From: Candidatus Pelagibacter sp. RS39
GTDB lineage: Bacteria; Pseudomonadota; Alphaproteobacteria; Pelagibacterales; Pelagibacteraceae
Assembly: GCF_002101315.1 (NCBI RefSeq)
Contig: NZ_CP020777.1
Span: forward strand, 186,001 to 250,000
Length of the DNA: 64,000 bases
Direction of reading: 5' to 3'
Part shown: positions 25,622 through 33,401 of the stretch, piece after piece
Layout: each line of letters opens with the position of its first letter
Numbering within the stretch: the first letter of the stretch is position 1
Translations under genes and position numbers: made by a program
Notes under the pieces: generated by a model
The model's input: the letters and a program-made list of their open reading frames with translations, nothing else
Told to the model about the DNA's origin: nothing
The model's database searches: none

Positions 25622-25939
25622 ATGCTAATAGATTTTAAAGATGAAGATTTTGAAAACAAAATTAAAAGTGAAGACGTTTCGGTAATCCAGTTTAGTGCAG
25701 CTTGGTGTGGGCCTTGTAAGTCTTTAAAACCAATTATGGACAAGCTTGCTATTGAATATAAAGACAAGGCTGGTTTTTATTACGCTGATATAGAAGATGG
25801 TGGTATTAATACTGGAAGTGCTGCAGGAATAAGAGGTGTTCCAACAGTGATAATCTATAAAAAAGGTGTTGAGGTTGATAGAAAAGTTGGTGGCGTACCA
25901 GAAAGTCATATGAAAGAGTTTTTAGAAAAAAATATCTAA
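25622..25939 (+). CDS. trxA: Thioredoxin
   Basis: A 105-residue thioredoxin fold with active site WCGPCK (Cys29 and Cys32), the cis-Pro region GVPTVIIYKKG and a C-terminal helix. It is a soluble cytoplasmic disulfide reductant; no signal peptide is present. AAAGGA lies before the ATG as Shine-Dalgarno. It is convergent with folC, with a 4-nt overlap of the stop regions, as in other alphaproteobacteria where trxA sits near folC. Confidence 0.94.
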   Translation: MLIDFKDEDFENKIKSEDVSVIQFSAAWCGPCKSLKPIMDKLAIEYKDKAGFYYADIEDGGINTGSAAGIRGVPTVIIYKKGVEVDRKVGGVPESHMKEFLEKNI

Positions 25940-27201
25940 TTTAAGTTTAATATTTCGCCAGCTAAATACAAAGATCCTGTAATTATTATCATATCATTTT
26001 CTTTAAGTGTTAAGGACTTAATTGCTTTCTCAACATTGTCCTCGTATCTAGCATTAAAAACATTTTGAAATTTTTCTTTTAATTTTTTACCACTGATAGC
26101 GTTTTGCTGATTAGGGATATCAACAGTGGTTAGAGACGATATATCTTTAAAGTGGCTAATATATTCTTCATGATTTTTATTAGACATCATTCCTATAATA
26201 AAATGCTTATTACAATCTAAGGTTTGGAGATATTCATTTAAAACTCTAGCACCATCCTCATTATGACTTCCATCTAATAGCAATTTGTTATTTTTGATTA
26301 AATCTTTGATTTTTCCAGACTTTATTTCTTGTAATCTGCCAATATTTTCTATTTTGGTAATTCCTTTTTTTATATCATCATCTTTAATTTCTAAATTTAG
26401 TTGTCTAATCGTTGCTATTGCTGTTGAAATATTTTCTAACTGAAACTGTCCAAGAATATTTGGTAATGGGAGTTTTAAGCCACCAAATTTATCTTCATAA
26501 TAAAAAAAACCATTCTCTCCATTAGAATAACTATAATCTTCATTAAAAAACAATTTGTTAGATAAGTTTTTAGAAATTGATTTTTTGATACTTTCAGTTG
26601 TTTCAACTGAGTTTTGTTTAGATACAATTATATTAGAATTTAAAAGAGAGGATGTTTTTTCAAATACAATTTTTTCTATAGTTTGTTGACCCTTTGGTAA
26701 CCAATCGAGGTGATCTTTACTAATAGAGCATACAATACTTGCTAAATTATTTTTTAGTATATTGGTGGCGTCAAACCTATGAAACAAACCTGCCTCTATT
26801 AAATTAATATTATTGGGATATTGAGCAGCTTTATAGAAATAACAAGCAGATAAAGCCTCAAAAAAAGTTAAAGGATTTTGATCATTTATTTTTTCAACTT
26901 CTTCAAAAAGATCAATTAATTCATCATCACTAAGCATATTGTTATTAAAAACAAATCTCTCATTAATTTTTTGAATGTGAGGACTCGTATAAACATTGCA
27001 TTTTACTTTTGCTTCTTTGAGAATCGAAAAAATTGCATTAATGGTAGATTGCTTACCATTTGTCCCTACTACTGATATTGCTTTTATTTTTTCTTGAGGA
27101 TTACCTAATTTTTCACAAAGAATCTTTATACGATCTAAACTTAAATCTATTTCTTTAGGATGCAGCTTTTGTAAGTGACTGACTATCTTCTGAAGTTTCA
27201 T
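25936..27201 (-). CDS. folC: Dihydrofolate/folylpolyglutamate synthase
   Basis: A 421-residue Mur-ligase-type ATP enzyme that adds glutamate to dihydropteroate and folates. The P-loop is GTNGKQST, where the usual third glycine is Gln. SPHIQKINERF, EAGLFHRFDATN (usually EVGLGGRxDATN), KDHLDWL and the LDGSHNEDGA motif follow. The divergence is moderate, yet all landmark motifs are recognisable. The start overlaps the accD end by 47 nt, an unusually long overlap, and it closes the long minus-strand block that begins at rnd. Confidence 0.9.
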   Translation of the reverse strand: MKLQKIVSHLQKLHPKEIDLSLDRIKILCEKLGNPQEKIKAISVVGTNGKQSTINAIFSILKEAKVKCNVYTSPHIQKINERFVFNNNMLSDDELIDLFEEVEKINDQNPLTFFEALSACYFYKAAQYPNNINLIEAGLFHRFDATNILKNNLASIVCSISKDHLDWLPKGQQTIEKIVFEKTSSLLNSNIIVSKQNSVETTESIKKSISKNLSNKLFFNEDYSYSNGENGFFYYEDKFGGLKLPLPNILGQFQLENISTAIATIRQLNLEIKDDDIKKGITKIENIGRLQEIKSGKIKDLIKNNKLLLDGSHNEDGARVLNEYLQTLDCNKHFIIGMMSNKNHEEYISHFKDISSLTTVDIPNQQNAISGKKLKEKFQNVFNARYEDNVEKAIKSLTLKENDMIIITGSLYLAGEILNLN

Positions 27202-28087
27202 TTTCTTCAGTGCTTATAACAGGTTTCTTATTTAATAGAATTGAAATTAAAATTCCAATTTTTTCTTGAAGATCTTTTCTATCGAGAATTAAGTCCACAA
27301 ATCCAGTTTTCTGAACATAAGAGCTCTTTTGAAAATTTTCCGGCAAACTTTCTTTTACAGTTCCTTCTATAACTCGAGCCCCAGCAAAAGCAATTAAAGC
27401 GTGATCTGACTCTGCAATGTGTAAATCTCCCAACATCGCATAAGAGGCGGTAATTCCACCAGCAGTCGGATCAGTTAAACAAACCAGATAAGGAAGATTA
27501 TTTTTTTTTAGTTCGTTAATAGCCATTGTTGTTCTTGTCATTTGAGATAATGAAATCAAACTTTCCATCATTCTCATTCCTCCTCCAGAACTAAAACAAA
27601 TAAAAGGAGTTTTGTTTTCGATGGCATGCTGAATACCATATAGAAATGCCTCACCCTCTGCAGCTGCCATTGAGGCACCCAAAAATTCAAAATCAGATGC
27701 AACAGCAGTAACTTTAATATTATTAATAGAACCAGAAACAACCATCATGCCACAATCCAGTCCTGTTTTTTTTCTGGCACTTTTTAATCTATCTTTATAA
27801 GATTTAGAGTCTGTCCAATCTAGTGGATCATCTTTTGGAATTGGTGTTTTAAAAATTTCATAATTATTTTTTCCAAAAAAAATGTCAAATCGTTGTTTTG
27901 GATTTATTCTGTGGTGTTTATTGCAATCAGGACACACCCAAAGATTTTCCTCTAAATCTTTTTTTAAAATTGGTCCTTTACAGCAGCTAGTCCAATCGCT
28001 ATTTGCAATTTCTTCTTTAGTTGCTCTTTTATGAATAGCTGTTTTTATTTTTTCACCAGCTTTAATTATTTTTGTTATCCAATTCAT
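27155..28087 (-). CDS. accD: Acetyl-CoA carboxylase carboxyltransferase subunit beta
   Basis: A 310-residue subunit that with AccA transfers CO2 from carboxybiotin to acetyl-CoA. The N-terminal zinc-ribbon region reads WTSCCKGPI then VCPDC: the second Cys pair is CxxC, while the first is an adjacent CC instead of CxxC. The crotonase-fold core has FSSGGGMRMMES, LTDPTAGGITASYAMLGD and FAGARVIEGT. The last 15 residues are variable and overlap folC. It lies directly after trpA (4 nt overlap). accA is at 48794 on the other strand. Confidence 0.95.
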   Translation of the reverse strand: MNWITKIIKAGEKIKTAIHKRATKEEIANSDWTSCCKGPILKKDLEENLWVCPDCNKHHRINPKQRFDIFFGKNNYEIFKTPIPKDDPLDWTDSKSYKDRLKSARKKTGLDCGMMVVSGSINNIKVTAVASDFEFLGASMAAAEGEAFLYGIQHAIENKTPFICFSSGGGMRMMESLISLSQMTRTTMAINELKKNNLPYLVCLTDPTAGGITASYAMLGDLHIAESDHALIAFAGARVIEGTVKESLPENFQKSSYVQKTGFVDLILDRKDLQEKIGILISILLNKKPVISTEENETSEDSQSLTKAAS

Positions 28088-28884
28088 TTAATTTTTTTTT
28101 TTAATCTATTTACGACATTATAAACATTTGTGACCGGATTTTGTCTTTTTTTTATAGAATTAGTTATTTCTCTACAAATAGCACTTCCAACAACTAAACC
28201 ATCGGCTTTTTTGAGTGATTTTATAGTTTTTTCAGTGATACCAAAACCAATCACAACATTTTTTTTCGAGTTGACTTTTTTTATTTTATCATAGTTAGAC
28301 AATATTTCTTTAGAGGAAACTTTAAGCTTTCCTCCAGTAGTAGAAAGCATCGATATGAAATAAATCATTTCATGCGAGTCTTTAATTATTTTTTTTAACC
28401 TATTTTTAGTTGTAGTTGGTGATAGTAGTTGAATAAAAAATATTGATCTGTTTTTGCATTTACTTGCAAATTTCTTATTTTCAGGCCAAGGCAAATCTAC
28501 AACTATTAATCCATTAACTCCTGAAATTTTACATTTTCTTAAAAATTCGTTTTCACCATATTGAAAGATCATATTATAGTACCCCATCAATATAACTGGT
28601 TTATTTTTATCAAATTTTTTAAAATCTTTCACAATTTTAAAAATATCATTAATTTTAACTCCATTTTTGATTGCTCTATATGAGCTTGTTTGAATTTGAC
28701 TTCCATCAGCAACTGGAGTGTTGTGAGGCACGCCAATCTCCAATATATCAACTTTTTTAGAGATTGATTTTAATATTTCCAAGGATTGTTTTTTTGTACT
28801 ATCTCCAGCTACAGTATAAGTCAACAAAGCAGGTCTATTTTCACTTTTAGCTTTTTTAAATGCATGACTGATTGGATTAGACAT
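28084..28884 (-). CDS. trpA: Tryptophan synthase alpha chain, divergent
   Basis: A 266-residue TIM barrel that normally cleaves indole-3-glycerol phosphate. Glu49 (LEIGVP), Asp60 (VADG), Tyr175 and Thr183 (STTGG), and the phosphate-binding GFGI and VGSA motifs, are in canonical places, so lyase chemistry looks intact. However, the loop normally written FSDPLADG is HNTPVADG: Asp56, which contacts the beta chain Lys167 in the Salmonella enzyme, is Thr. The partner TrpB lacks that Lys. It overlaps trpB by 8 nt and accD by 4 nt. Confidence 0.85.
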   Translation of the reverse strand: MSNPISHAFKKAKSENRPALLTYTVAGDSTKKQSLEILKSISKKVDILEIGVPHNTPVADGSQIQTSSYRAIKNGVKINDIFKIVKDFKKFDKNKPVILMGYYNMIFQYGENEFLRKCKISGVNGLIVVDLPWPENKKFASKCKNRSIFFIQLLSPTTTKNRLKKIIKDSHEMIYFISMLSTTGGKLKVSSKEILSNYDKIKKVNSKKNVVIGFGITEKTIKSLKKADGLVVGSAICREITNSIKKRQNPVTNVYNVVNRLKKKIK

Positions 28885-30112
28885 ATTTTTTTCCTAATCT
28901 CTTCTCTATAATTCCTCGATCTTTGTAAGCATCTCCACAACTATTGACTACAACAATTGTATCTTTACTAAATCTTTTTGACTCAGCTATTGCAACTGAG
29001 AAAGCATGACTTGGTTCCAATGAAGGTCTTAATTTTTCAAATTTTGTTACCAGTTTGTAAGCGTTTAATGCTTCTTCATCACTTGCTGCAGTGTATCTTG
29101 CTCTTTTTGTGTCTTTAAGAAAACAATGAAGTGGGGAGATACCCGGGTAATCTAGTCCAGCAGAAATTGACTCTGTTTCTTCTATTTGACCATCAGTATT
29201 TTGATTTACATATTGAGCTGCACCATGAAGAATTCCTATTTTAGATCCATATGTTAGTGGTGCTGCATGTTTTTTACTTTTTGTTGGTCCACCAGCTTCT
29301 ACACCAATAAATTCACACTGTTTTTTGTCGTAATCCATAAACTCATTCCAAAAACCAAAACTAGAACTTCCTCCTCCAACACAATTATAAAGTTTGAGTT
29401 TCTTTGGAACTGATCCAAACTCATCAACTAATTGAGTTTTTAATTCTCTTGATATTTGACTTGTGCTCCATCCACAGATACGAACGAAAACAGCTGGGCC
29501 AACAGTGCTGCCAACACACATTGCAACTTTATCACAATTTGCAACCCAGTAACGCATGCACTCAGATACAGCATCTACGAGAGTTTGACTTCCAGAATAT
29601 ACAGGAATAACTTCCGCTCCATTTTTTTTCATTGCTCTTACATTGGGTTGTTGTCTTCGAATATCTTTCGCACCCATGAAAATCTTGCATTTTAAACCAA
29701 ATTTTTTGGCTGCCATACTTAACATTTTACCTGCATACCCAGCACCAGTGTCTCCACAAATAACTTTTTTTCCAGAACGCTTTGCAAGTAAACAATGGAC
29801 AGTTGCATTATAAATTTTATGTGCACCCCCATTTGCATCAGATACAACTTTAGACCAAATTTGAGCCCCCCCCACATGTTTTGTTAAATTTTCTAATTTG
29901 ATAAAACGAGTAGGACTGCCAACCCAATTTTTAAAATACTTATCTCTTTCATTTATAAACTTTTTATCTTTCTTGAGTTTATTAAAAAGAATTTCTAAAT
30001 CTTCGATCGGTTTTTTTAATGTTTCGGGGACAAAGTTCCCCCCAAATTTACCTCCCCAAAATCCCTGTTTATCACCTTGATCTATTACTGGAATTCGTTT
30101 TTTAAGTTTCAT
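28877..30112 (-). CDS. trpB: Tryptophan synthase beta chain-like PLP enzyme, divergent active site
   Basis: A 411-residue fold-type II PLP protein, clearly TrpB-derived: start GFWGGKFGGNFVPETL, PLP lysine Lys99 in GGAHKIYN, GGGS phosphate loop, and DGQIEETESISAGLDYP. Key positions differ from canonical TrpB: catalytic Glu109 is Asp121 (DTGAGYAG for ETGAGQHG), Lys167 is Val179 (TLVDA for TLKDA), Ser377 is Cys392, GPxPxP is GPAVFV, KREDLN is KVVSDAN, and GSNAIG is GSSSFG. It could still make tryptophan or have shifted substrates. It sits between trpF (4 nt overlap) and trpA (8 nt overlap). Confidence 0.8.
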   Translation of the reverse strand: MKLKKRIPVIDQGDKQGFWGGKFGGNFVPETLKKPIEDLEILFNKLKKDKKFINERDKYFKNWVGSPTRFIKLENLTKHVGGAQIWSKVVSDANGGAHKIYNATVHCLLAKRSGKKVICGDTGAGYAGKMLSMAAKKFGLKCKIFMGAKDIRRQQPNVRAMKKNGAEVIPVYSGSQTLVDAVSECMRYWVANCDKVAMCVGSTVGPAVFVRICGWSTSQISRELKTQLVDEFGSVPKKLKLYNCVGGGSSSFGFWNEFMDYDKKQCEFIGVEAGGPTKSKKHAAPLTYGSKIGILHGAAQYVNQNTDGQIEETESISAGLDYPGISPLHCFLKDTKRARYTAASDEEALNAYKLVTKFEKLRPSLEPSHAFSVAIAESKRFSKDTIVVVNSCGDAYKDRGIIEKRLGKKYV

Positions 30113-30726
30113 GTATTTGCAAATAATTTTAACAATCTATCAATTTTATTTATATCTTTTTTTCCCTCATTATTTTCAATCGATCCAGATAAATCAATTA
30201 TGAAGTCTTTATTTTTAAAATTAGGAATATCATCTATTTGAATATTTCCTGCAATCATTTTATTTATCGTACTAGGTACCTGTTCTAATAGCTTATGATC
30301 AAAGCTCTCAGACTTATGGTAACCCTTCGAGTCAAAAAGAATTATATCTGAGATTTTTAAATAATCTTTATATCTTTCCACGTCCTCCTTATTTGAAATT
30401 GTAAGGGCTGAAATTATCTTAATTTTGTACTTTTCCTTAATTTCAAAAGTTCTCAAAGGGTCAACATCATAAAGCTGGTAATAATCAAAATTAAGATCTT
30501 TAATTTTTTCTAATAATTGGTTTGTTGGACTCACAAGCACTGAAACAAAATTAGTTTGTTTTCTGTTAACATTAACCAAATTTTTTAGATTTTCATATGT
30601 AACATACCTTTTGCTGTTTTCATAATTTGTGATGAAACCGATAAATTTTGGCGGATATGGATGATTTAAAATATAATTCAAAGTTTCGGGATCTGAGATC
30701 CCACAAATTTTTAAACCTTTGATCAT
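30109..30726 (-). CDS. trpF: Phosphoribosylanthranilate isomerase, divergent
   Basis: A 205-residue TIM barrel. The catalytic set is retained: Cys8 (KICGI), Arg40 (SKRYV) and Asp132 (LFDSK). Several family motifs are altered: QLHG is QLYD, the GGTG loop after the Asp is absent (SKGYHKSESFD), AGGL is AGNI and SSGVE is LSGSIE. The enzyme normally isomerises PRA to CdRP in tryptophan synthesis. It overlaps pyrF and trpB by 4 nt each, keeping the alphaproteobacterial trpF-trpB-trpA-accD order. Divergence parallels that of the two neighbours. Confidence 0.78.
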   Translation of the reverse strand: MIKGLKICGISDPETLNYILNHPYPPKFIGFITNYENSKRYVTYENLKNLVNVNRKQTNFVSVLVSPTNQLLEKIKDLNFDYYQLYDVDPLRTFEIKEKYKIKIISALTISNKEDVERYKDYLKISDIILFDSKGYHKSESFDHKLLEQVPSTINKMIAGNIQIDDIPNFKNKDFIIDLSGSIENNEGKKDINKIDRLLKLFANT

Positions 30727-31400
30727 TGACTTAAATGATCAATTAATGTTTGGATATTTTTTCTTATGTTGCCTTTTGTTATTGGCCTTCCTATCACAAG
30801 CCAATCACTACCATTCTCATAAGCTTGTCTTGGAGTAACAACTCTTTTTTGATCATTTGTTTTAGTATTAAATCTTATTCCTGGGGTAATTATTTCTTTT
30901 TTGAAGAATTTTTTAACAATTTTAACTTCTCGTGCACTACACACAATAGCATCTAAGTTAGCTTTTTTTGCTAATTTAGCTTGATGTGCTACTAGTTGAT
31001 TGATATTTTTACTGTAACCAATCTCTTTTAAAGATTTATTATTTAAAGAAGTAAGTGTTGTGACACCTATTAATTTTATTTTTCCAGATACTTTTTTACT
31101 AGCTTTTAAAGCCTCTAAGCCAGAACTTATATGTATAGTCAGGTAATTAACATTCAAATCTTTTATTGCTTTAATAGTCGATACACAAGTATTTGGAATA
31201 TCATGAATTTTAATATCAGCAAATATTATCTTTTTTTTAATTTTAGATAAGAAAACTCTTCCATATTTTGAGTTTAAAAATTCTAAACCAAATTTATATC
31301 CAATATTTAATTTTCTACTTTGTGTTTCTTTTATAATTTTTTTAATTTTTAAAATATTAGTACTATCACAAGCAACAAATATTTTATTTTTTTTCATCAT
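30723..31400 (-). CDS. pyrF: Orotidine 5'-phosphate decarboxylase
   Basis: A 225-residue barrel of the last UMP step. The catalytic DIKIHDIPNT motif holds the Asp-Lys-Asp set, VACDS opens strand 1, and TPGIRF and the phosphate-binding SDWLVIGRPIT end the barrel. It overlaps ihfB by 17 nt upstream and trpF by 4 nt downstream; the ihfB-pyrF-trpF order is common in alphaproteobacteria. Confidence 0.95.
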   Translation of the reverse strand: MMKKNKIFVACDSTNILKIKKIIKETQSRKLNIGYKFGLEFLNSKYGRVFLSKIKKKIIFADIKIHDIPNTCVSTIKAIKDLNVNYLTIHISSGLEALKASKKVSGKIKLIGVTTLTSLNNKSLKEIGYSKNINQLVAHQAKLAKKANLDAIVCSAREVKIVKKFFKKEIITPGIRFNTKTNDQKRVVTPRQAYENGSDWLVIGRPITKGNIRKNIQTLIDHLSQ

Positions 31401-31677
31401 TTAAAATTTTAAACAAATCTTTTGACATTTTGAAGTGAATTGTTTTTTTTTCAGGCGTATGAATTTTTTTATTTGTTTTGGGGTTTCTTGATATTCTAGC
31501 TTTTTGAATTTTAGTTGAAAAAACTCCAAATCCTCTCAATTCAACTCTTTCTGTACGTTTAAGTGAATTTTTTATTTCTTTTAGAATGATATTTAAGAAT
31601 TTCTCTAAATCTTTTTTTAAAAAATTAGGATAGTTTTTTGATAATTGTTTTAAAAGCTTTGATTTTACAATCGCCAA
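31384..31677 (-). CDS. ihfB: Integration host factor subunit beta
   Basis: A 97-residue DNA-bending protein of the HU/IHF family. The arm signature RVELRGFGVFSTK and the intercalating proline arm SRNPKTNKKIHTPEKK are clear, with a basic helical N-terminus. It is assigned as IHF beta rather than HU because of its position directly after rpsA (2 nt). Its partner IhfA is not in the window. Confidence 0.9.
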   Translation of the reverse strand: MAIVKSKLLKQLSKNYPNFLKKDLEKFLNIILKEIKNSLKRTERVELRGFGVFSTKIQKARISRNPKTNKKIHTPEKKTIHFKMSKDLFKILNDEKK

Positions 31678-31679
31678 TT

Positions 31680-33401
31680 TTATTTTTTATTTTTTTTGTT
31701 TAGATCCTCAGATAGAGTTGAAAATGGAAGGTTCTTTCCAGACCCTTCTGATCCATATTTTTCCAAAGCCTCTTTTTTTTGTAATTCCTCTAATAACTTT
31801 ATACTTAAAGTTACTTTTCTTTTATTAAAATCTATTTCAGAAACTGCACAGTCGATTCTTTCTCCACCGGTAAATCTAGAGGTCCTAGCATCCGCAGGGT
31901 TTATTGCAATCTGATTTTTTTTAATTATAAAATCCATCTCACACTCCTCTGGTCTTACAATTAGTCCTTTATTATCTGTGGAAACAATTTTAACAGTTAT
32001 TATATCATTTACCTTAATGTCTTTAAACCAGTCAAATGGGTCTGGTTGAGTTTGTTTTAAACCAACTCTTATTTTTTGATCACTAGTCTTTATCTCTAAA
32101 ACTTTTACTTTAATTTTATCACCTTTATTAAATTTTTTTAATTCCTCCTCACCATTTTCTAGATAAGTCAAATCATTACAGTGTAAAAAAGCATCAATAT
32201 CTGAATTTTCTACATTAACAAATAAAGAGTATTCGTTTTTATTCACAACTTCTCCATCTACTTCAGTTCCAACAGGATACTTTTTCTCAAAAGCTTCAAA
32301 AGGGTTTTCCTTGGTCAGCTTGTGAGAAATTGCAACACGTCTTTTTGTTTTATCAATTTCAGTTATTACACAGTCAATTTCATCACCAACATTAAACATT
32401 TTTTTCACAGAAATGTTTTTTTTGATCCAACTAATTTCACTAGAGTGTAATAGCGTTGTTAATCCCGGCTCTAATTCACAAAACGCTCCAAAGTCCATAA
32501 TCTTAACTACTTTTGCCTTATAGATTTTATTTAACTCATAGTTTTCAATATGTTCGAATGGGTCGGGTGATAACTGTTTGATGGAACAACCAACCTGTAA
32601 TTTCTCTTTATCAACACTAATAACTTTCAAATTATGTTTTTCACCAATATTAAATATTTCATCAGGATGACTAACTCGACTATATGAAATTTCTTGAAGA
32701 TGGACTAGAACATCTAGTTCATTGTTTACATTAAAAAAACATCCAAAAGAACTATAACCTTTTACTTCTGCATCTTTTATAATGTCACCTACTTTATACT
32801 TTTCAATAATTTTTGCTTTATCTTCTTTTTTAAATGTTGATATTATTTCTCTTCTTGAAACACATGCATTTCCTCTAATTTTATCTAATTTTATTAATGC
32901 AAATTTTTGTGGTTCGTTCATAAGATGATCTATATTCTTAAGAGGTTTATCACTAATTTGCGACCCTGGTAAAAACATGAGGGAACCTGTGTCCAAATGT
33001 TCTACAATACATCCACCTTTACACTTTGATGTAATTTTACCCATGATGGGCTCTTTTTTCTCATATGCCTCAACAAGTTTGTCCCAACCTTTGATTTTTT
33101 GAGCTTTACTTGCTGATACTACAACATCACCATTCTTATCTTCTATTTTTTCTAAAAGTACTGAAATTGTTTGACCTATTGCAATATTTTTTGCAAGGCC
33201 CATGCTCTTAAGTTCATTAATATCAAGAACTGGTTCGCTCTTTAACCCTTCTATAAATAAAAAAACAAATTTCTCAGTTATTTTATTTATTTTACCTTCG
33301 ATGATTTTTCCTTCCTCAATAGTATTTTTTGTAAATTGATTGTTAAGTAATTTTTCAAATTCTTTAGAAGCTGGGTTTGAAAGGTCTTTGTATATTTCCA
33401 T
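31680..33401 (-). CDS. rpsA: 30S ribosomal protein S1
   Basis: A 573-residue protein of six S1-type OB repeats, from about residue 30 to 540. Each carries the pattern G-xx-F-x-x-V-x-x-x-G-x-x-H (for example GKITSKCKGGCIVEHLDT and YKAKVVKIMDFGAFCELEPG). It docks on the 30S subunit and recruits mRNA, important where Shine-Dalgarno sites are weak as here. The first gene of the S1-ihfB run, it has a 169-bp upstream gap without a coding sequence; cmk, often found there, is missing. Confidence 0.97.
   Translation of the reverse strand: MEIYKDLSNPASKEFEKLLNNQFTKNTIEEGKIIEGKINKITEKFVFLFIEGLKSEPVLDINELKSMGLAKNIAIGQTISVLLEKIEDKNGDVVVSASKAQKIKGWDKLVEAYEKKEPIMGKITSKCKGGCIVEHLDTGSLMFLPGSQISDKPLKNIDHLMNEPQKFALIKLDKIRGNACVSRREIISTFKKEDKAKIIEKYKVGDIIKDAEVKGYSSFGCFFNVNNELDVLVHLQEISYSRVSHPDEIFNIGEKHNLKVISVDKEKLQVGCSIKQLSPDPFEHIENYELNKIYKAKVVKIMDFGAFCELEPGLTTLLHSSEISWIKKNISVKKMFNVGDEIDCVITEIDKTKRRVAISHKLTKENPFEAFEKKYPVGTEVDGEVVNKNEYSLFVNVENSDIDAFLHCNDLTYLENGEEELKKFNKGDKIKVKVLEIKTSDQKIRVGLKQTQPDPFDWFKDIKVNDIITVKIVSTDNKGLIVRPEECEMDFIIKKNQIAINPADARTSRFTGGERIDCAVSEIDFNKRKVTLSIKLLEELQKKEALEKYGSEGSGKNLPFSTLSEDLNKKNKK

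Follow-up and report, generated by a model that had tools for sequence, protein, structure and literature searches.

The single tryptophan synthase of Candidatus Pelagibacter sp. RS39, a SAR11 bacterium with a complete genome of 1.2 Mb, is a real, conserved and order-specific variant of this enzyme, referred to here as the D-type. It is encoded by trpB (28877-30112, minus strand; beta subunit, 411 amino acids) and trpA (28084-28884, minus strand; alpha subunit, 266 amino acids) in a 64,000-nucleotide stretch of NZ_CP020777.1. This whole stretch is called the window, and all coordinates are based on it. The D-type is likely to be a functional tryptophan synthase in which indole activation and subunit coupling have been remodelled, rather than a decayed gene, and probably does not belong to a new pathway. 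Glu109 of the beta subunit and the salt bridge between alphaAsp56 and betaLys167 are seen as central to catalysis and allostery, largely from the Salmonella enzyme. An enzyme that is conserved and apparently works with both replaced is a natural test of what tryptophan synthase needs.

Residue changes in TrpB and TrpA

A preliminary description of this locus had listed unusual residues in TrpB and TrpA, and all of them are found at the numbers it gave. In TrpB, Asp121 (codon 29750-29752; this and all other codons are on the minus strand) corresponds to Salmonella betaGlu109, Val179 (29576-29578) to betaLys167 of the interface salt bridge and Cys392 to Ser377. The motifs DTGAGYAG, GPAVFV and KVVSDAN are also present. 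Tyr126 (29735-29737) stands for betaGln114 and Asp394 (28931-28933) for betaArg379. The lysine that binds pyridoxal phosphate (PLP), Lys99 (29816-29818; betaLys87), is kept. In TrpA, Thr56 (28717-28719) replaces alphaAsp56, the partner of betaLys167. The catalytic residues Glu49 (28738-28740) and Asp60 (28705-28707) are kept, and Thr183 is also where it was said to be.

The related sequences tell the same story. Among the 113 D-type TrpB sequences that cover site 109 (E. coli numbering), Asp is found at this position in 113 of 113, as against Glu in 56 of the 56 TrpBs inspected outside the order. Lys167 is replaced by Val in all of the D-type sequences and is present in 55 of the 55 readable sequences from outside. 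A sequencing error, which the preliminary description had named as a possible refutation, is ruled out by 113 sequences with the identical residue. The fixed D-type changes in TrpB are E109D, H115A, K167V, N171S, T190S and N236S, and nearly all members also carry N89Y, Q114Y, R148A/S, P196V/I, P198V and R379D. Retained residues are H86, K87, T110-G113, D138, R141, N145, R175, G232-S235, D305 and E350. In other words, the PLP lysine, the GGGS phosphate loop, the TGAG carboxylate loop and Asp305 are all conserved. The D-type TrpA retains E49, D60, Y175, T183, G184, F212, G213 and S235 and is altered by F54H, D56T/A, G181S and changes at further positions of loop L2. One residue that had been singled out is present but is no special change. 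This is Cys377, which is common in Alphaproteobacteria as the usual state (24 of 32 canonical sequences).

Deep-branching members of the D-type offer a clue to the order of events. Two of them (L004 and L164) have Asp109 and Val167, yet retain Arg148 and have Met at position 114, suggesting that Arg148 was lost after the catalytic and interface changes. Relatives with such partial changes provide a ready series for working out which contacts the enzyme needs and the order in which these can be replaced.

Selection versus drift

What if the D-type is only a lineage quirk? In this scenario fast-evolving, small, AT-rich genomes tolerate a sloppier tryptophan synthase and the changes are meaningless. 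SAR11 proteins are generally divergent (AccD is about 35-42% identical to that of other alphaproteobacteria) and the D-type is a lineage-wide trait, both of which would fit. However, the neighbouring genes behave differently. Sites were scored as refixed if they are invariant in 50 outside sequences but changed and refixed (at least 95%) in the D-type. TrpB has 30 such sites among 149 invariant positions and TrpA has 4 among 42, whereas there are none in AccD (0/38), PyrF (0/45) or TrpF (0/27). The difference between TrpB and these three controls (0/110) is significant (Fisher p 2.9e-8). Therefore, the branch leading to the D-type saw joint change in TrpB and TrpA at many positions that are otherwise invariant. 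The new states are also under strong purifying selection. Measured between the window and its close relatives, the ratio of nonsynonymous to synonymous substitution rates (dN/dS) is very low, at 0.03-0.08 for TrpB and 0.08-0.16 for TrpA, and the new residues are themselves invariant, as the count at site 109 illustrates. All of this makes drift an improbable explanation. The preliminary description had reasoned that residues shared by all SAR11 would amount to a lineage quirk. They are indeed largely a lineage trait, but a constrained one rather than a product of drift. The refixed sites do not cluster significantly in the COMM domain (residues 102-189; p=0.5). They are enriched in residues 74-236 of TrpB (p=0.001), a region picked after the site list had been viewed.

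Co-evolution of the subunit interface

The second line of evidence comes from the contact between the subunits. In 150 paired sequences the states of alpha56/beta167 are D/K (30), E/K (7), T/V (91), A/V (18), C/V (2) and T/L (2). The two positions are either a charge pair or both uncharged, and the mixed case occurs in 0 of the 150. The D-type is uncharged throughout, with Thr/Val in the window, so the salt bridge is absent. The matching in every pair is another point against drift. AlphaL2 Asp56, alphaL6 Gly181 and the position of betaLys167 in the COMM domain are recognised signalling contacts (PMC6608616). In addition, the closed state has betaGln114 bonded to Asn145 and Arg148 (PMC9512447).

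The trees point in the same direction. The D-type and two other SAR11 types, H and T3 (see below), form separate, strongly supported groups in the trees of both subunits. Within SAR11 the subunits pair as 112 D/D, 8 H/H and 2 T3/T3, with 0 mixed; E. coli is the sole canonical reference for TrpA, which makes this typing meaningful only within SAR11. The trees suggest that the charge pair was lost separately at least twice (in the D-type and in T3) and underwent one conservative change (to E/K in the H-type). A coordinated change of the interface, as the preliminary description proposed, is thus strongly supported. Altered coupling, as judged from the sequences, is likely because alpha56 and beta167 covary, the TrpA and TrpB types are unmixed in SAR11 and the same divergent clades appear in both trees.

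Exchange of matched trpBA pairs

The H-type pair is found in seven genomes of the window's genus (loci L005 and L157-L161 in G012, G221, G228, G173, G108 and G071, and L148 in G022). G012 is presumably HIMB5. H-type proteins are only distantly related to those of the window (about 36% identical for TrpB and 29% for TrpA). In the six genomes tabulated they keep Glu109 and Lys167, whereas alphaD56 and the catalytic alphaD60 are both replaced by Glu and betaD305 by Gln or Thr. A relative of the H-type in a genome of another family (G050) has Glu at alpha56, Asn at beta305 and Asp at alpha60. The T3 pair is present in two genomes (L165 in G097, L166 in G202). It has Leu at beta167, Thr at alpha56, Met114, Ile148 and ETGAS in place of ETGAG, and is very divergent, on a very long branch. 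All three types lie at one and the same locus, flanked by accD on one side and by trpF or pyrF on the other, with SAR11 genes around them. This fits a history, read from the sequences, in which trpB and trpA would have been replaced only as a matched pair. Such cassettes offer a natural experiment on how the subunits co-evolve, and TrpB engineering gains a new starting point in them. In a few SAR11 genomes there is also an extra TrpB2, unlinked to trpBA. Three of these (L169-L171, in G202, G173 and G221) have H-type or T3 trpBA, and TrpB2 is found in some other SAR11 genomes as well.

Could the D-type itself have arrived by horizontal transfer? The pair would then have entered a SAR11 ancestor as one piece, from a lineage outside the sampled ones, with the same function as proposed here. 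In favour are the clear exchange of matched trpBA pairs within SAR11 and the great length of the stem branches (1.42 for TrpB and 1.6 for TrpA). However, the gene order is ancestral and no donor has come to light. None of the matches listed from a sample of 397 non-SAR11 genomes of the phylum is more than 45% identical to the window TrpB, and the best 80 matches among 84,980 species genomes are all from Pelagibacteraceae. Viral carriage of the cassette can also be set aside, with no related contig in IMG/VR. TrpBs in phage records, mostly short and unannotated, are about 41% identical or less among the matches listed. Transfer from outside is a possibility to keep in mind, though a rather doubtful one.

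Distribution in SAR11

The window type is the prevalent form in the order. A survey of 248 SAR11-order genomes, each at least 85% complete, gave a match in 243, and about 223 of the 248 carry the D-type, "about" because types were read from a table of E-values. The rest comprise 7 H-type, 2 T3, 1 canonical form and 1 H relative, with weak generic matches or none in the others. One D-type carrier (G064) is, we believe, the freshwater strain LSUCC0530. SAR11 are the ocean's most abundant bacteria. Given this abundance, few tryptophan synthases on Earth may be more common than the D-type.

Nonetheless, the window TrpB falls below the cut-off of the curated family model, TIGR00263 (374 bits against 392.45). 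Other D-type TrpBs score 370-406 bits and straddle this cut-off, whereas the full-length main TrpBs of class members outside the order score 549-659. The window protein is not a TrpB2 either, with 93 and 87 bits on TrpB2-like models that have cut-offs of 519 and 366. TrpA is above the TIGR00262 cut-off (207.9 bits against 102.35).

Some genomes have trpC but no trpA or trpB (e.g., G095 and G107), about as many as incompleteness would give. In several genomes trpB or trpA is cut off by the end of a contig or abuts it (L202 in G168, L207 in G277 and matches in G088, G138 and G240), the end in G168 and G277 being at or inside trpA. Difficulty in assembling a variable site may be the cause.

Function and proposed mechanism

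Is the D-type enzyme a tryptophan synthase in the cell? A whole-genome search finds one TrpA and one TrpB; the only other match to the TrpB model is a generic PLP enzyme at 25 bits. A second, canonical trpB or trpA, for which the preliminary description had advised a search, is thereby ruled out. Intact trpE, trpG, trpD and trpC lie adjacent to each other at about 589.7-593.5 kb of the chromosome (contig C1). With these genes intact and only one trpA and one trpB present, the pathway is complete and ends in the window trpBA. Kagan et al. (2008; PMC2395257) took the single trpB of P. ubique HTCC1062, a member of the same divergent cluster as the window trpB, to be functional. HTCC1062 can be cultured in artificial seawater supplemented with vitamins, glycine, glycine betaine, pyruvate and dimethylsulfoniopropionate, with no added tryptophan (PMC5069961). 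Once its special requirements are provided for, it is said to synthesise all 20 amino acids (PMC5764234). Since this strain has a single trpB, of the divergent cluster, and grows without tryptophan, the D-type enzyme very probably makes tryptophan in vivo.

The modelled folds are ordinary. An AlphaFold2 model of the window TrpB has a mean predicted local distance difference test (pLDDT) score of 91.9 and template modelling (TM) scores of 0.89-0.92 to solved TrpB structures, in keeping with the TrpB1 fold. TrpA is also modelled with a normal fold, although loops alphaL2 and alphaL6 are of low confidence. Among solved structures, the closest matches are ordinary TrpA and TrpB.

What has been replaced as a set is E109D (indole activation), Q114Y with R148A/S (the closed-state network), alphaD56T/A with betaK167V (the salt bridge) and alphaG181S (a loop L6 contact). 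The following mechanism is proposed. Serine would be activated on PLP as usual, through the retained K87, T110-G-A-G113, R141, D305, E350 and GGGS, and indole would be supplied by TrpA, whose catalytic acids E49 and D60 are kept. The carboxylate of Asp121 might then take the role of Glu109 at indole N1, in a pocket presumably reshaped by N89Y (Tyr101), Q114Y (Tyr126), H115A (Ala127), P196V and P198V. Closure of alpha on beta would rely on packing and kept contacts (betaR175, alphaT183 and betaD305-R141) instead of the alpha56-beta167 bridge, and signals between the subunits would have to pass through other contacts as well. Coupling of this kind would be type-specific, and for that reason neither subunit could be replaced without the other, the pattern that the swapped cassettes seem to show.

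A bolder variant of this proposal is a different coupling logic. Lacking both the 56-167 switch and the Gln114-Arg148 lock, alpha and beta turnover might be loosely or newly gated, and the Asp pocket might accept other nucleophiles. This is speculative and on balance unlikely. If true, one of the sea's commonest tryptophan synthases departs from the textbook model of allosteric channelling.

Going further, the D-type might mainly condense another nucleophile or use a donor other than serine (e.g., phosphoserine or acetylserine), so that tryptophan would be one product among several. The changes to the catalytic Glu and the side chains of the carboxylate loop (E109D, Q114Y and H115A) are what one might expect, T. 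maritima TrpB with E105 mutated uses phenols, and the changes are refixed rather than drifting. However, site 109 still has an acid and site 305 an Asp, both catalytic acids remain in TrpA, and the window trpB is the only one, at the end of a complete trp pathway. In addition, a strain with only a divergent-cluster trpB grows without tryptophan. A new main function is improbable on these grounds, and the other substrate that the preliminary description had entertained finds no support.

Several points weigh against the D-type being a functional, remodelled tryptophan synthase. No assay or kinetics of the D-type enzyme was found in the literature. E109D in the Salmonella enzyme reportedly alters specificity and activity (work ascribed to Brzovic in 1992), and we infer from the sequences that the D-type would compensate for it. 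The alpha56/beta167 counts are of related sequences rather than independent events. The origin of the D-type may lie either in place or in early acquisition as a pair. Finally, genome G065, whose TrpB (L155) is D-type, is only tentatively taken to be HTCC1062.

Relation to known systems

The D-type resembles TrpB1/TrpA of Salmonella, E. coli and Pyrococcus furiosus in fold, gene pairing, PLP lysine, serine-handling residues, alpha-subunit acids and place in the operon. The window TrpB is 39% identical to E. coli TrpB, and its best Protein Data Bank matches are TrpB1 enzymes. It differs from them by E109D, Q114Y, H115A, K167V, R379D, alphaD56T/A, alphaG181S and the 30 refixed TrpB sites. TrpB2 (COG1350) is likewise a natural divergent beta subunit, but it keeps E109 and is only about 25% identical to the window TrpB.

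Changes at the catalytic position itself have two precedents. One is the plant TSB-like pseudoenzyme, which is naturally altered at the residue equivalent to Glu109 (PMC12727527). Its existence raises the possibility that the D-type TrpB merely activates TrpA to release free indole. However, TSB-like has lost the acid (Ala, Ser or Pro at 109), has Glu at 305, makes no tryptophan and is a paralogue beside a normal TSB, whereas the window TrpB has Asp at both 109 and 305 and is the cell's only TrpB. An indole-releasing pseudoenzyme is therefore a very remote prospect. The other precedent is engineered TrpB with E105 changed (TmTyrS and Tm9D8 E105G). These are laboratory mutants of a stand-alone beta subunit that lack the acid and are used with phenols.

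Also close is the divergent trpB_1 cluster of the Sargasso Sea and P. ubique, which is the same gene group with the same gene order (Kagan et al., 2008; PMC2395257). The accessible text of that paper describes no residue changes, subunit pairing or second or third type of SAR11 trpBA. No paper on E109D or any natural variant of the catalytic Glu was found in the open-licence literature. Nor did a search of that literature find the residue remodelling, the strict alpha56/beta167 pairing or the exchange of matched cassettes. The divergent cluster has been known since 2008, and it is these residue-level, pairing and exchange features that were not found published.

The trpF gene and its neighbours

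The open reading frames trpF (30109-30726, minus strand), trpB and trpA overlap, and are followed by accD (27155-28087, minus strand) and folC (25936-27201, minus strand). The placement of the trio before accD-folC, as first described, is thus confirmed. AccD marks the flank that stays in place where the trpBA pair is replaced.

TrpF, a phosphoribosylanthranilate isomerase, had been described as a matched third member of the trio. The residues named for it (Cys8, Arg40 and Asp132) are in place, including the catalytic Cys8 and Asp132, and the GGTG loop is indeed missing, with SKGYHKSESFDH standing where GGxG would be. The protein is under the NCBIfam cut-offs but over the Pfam cut-off. However, the loop is lacking throughout the sampled members of the window's genus, including beside H-type and T3 trpBA, whereas D-type carriers of family f2 mostly have a TrpF with GGxG. 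The loss is a separate genus-level change that crosses TrpBA types, which rules out TrpF as a co-evolved partner and leaves it as an operon member with no link to the change in TrpBA. Elsewhere in family f1 (L153), the form differs again.

The surrounding region, rpsA-ihf-pyrF-trpF-trpBA-accD-folC (25936-33401 and related loci), is a mosaic across the genus. Identity to the window among genus members ranges over 44-99% for AccD and about 44-86% for PyrF, and the two do not vary in parallel, a pattern that would fit the exchange of several genes of the rpsA-to-folC region within the genus.

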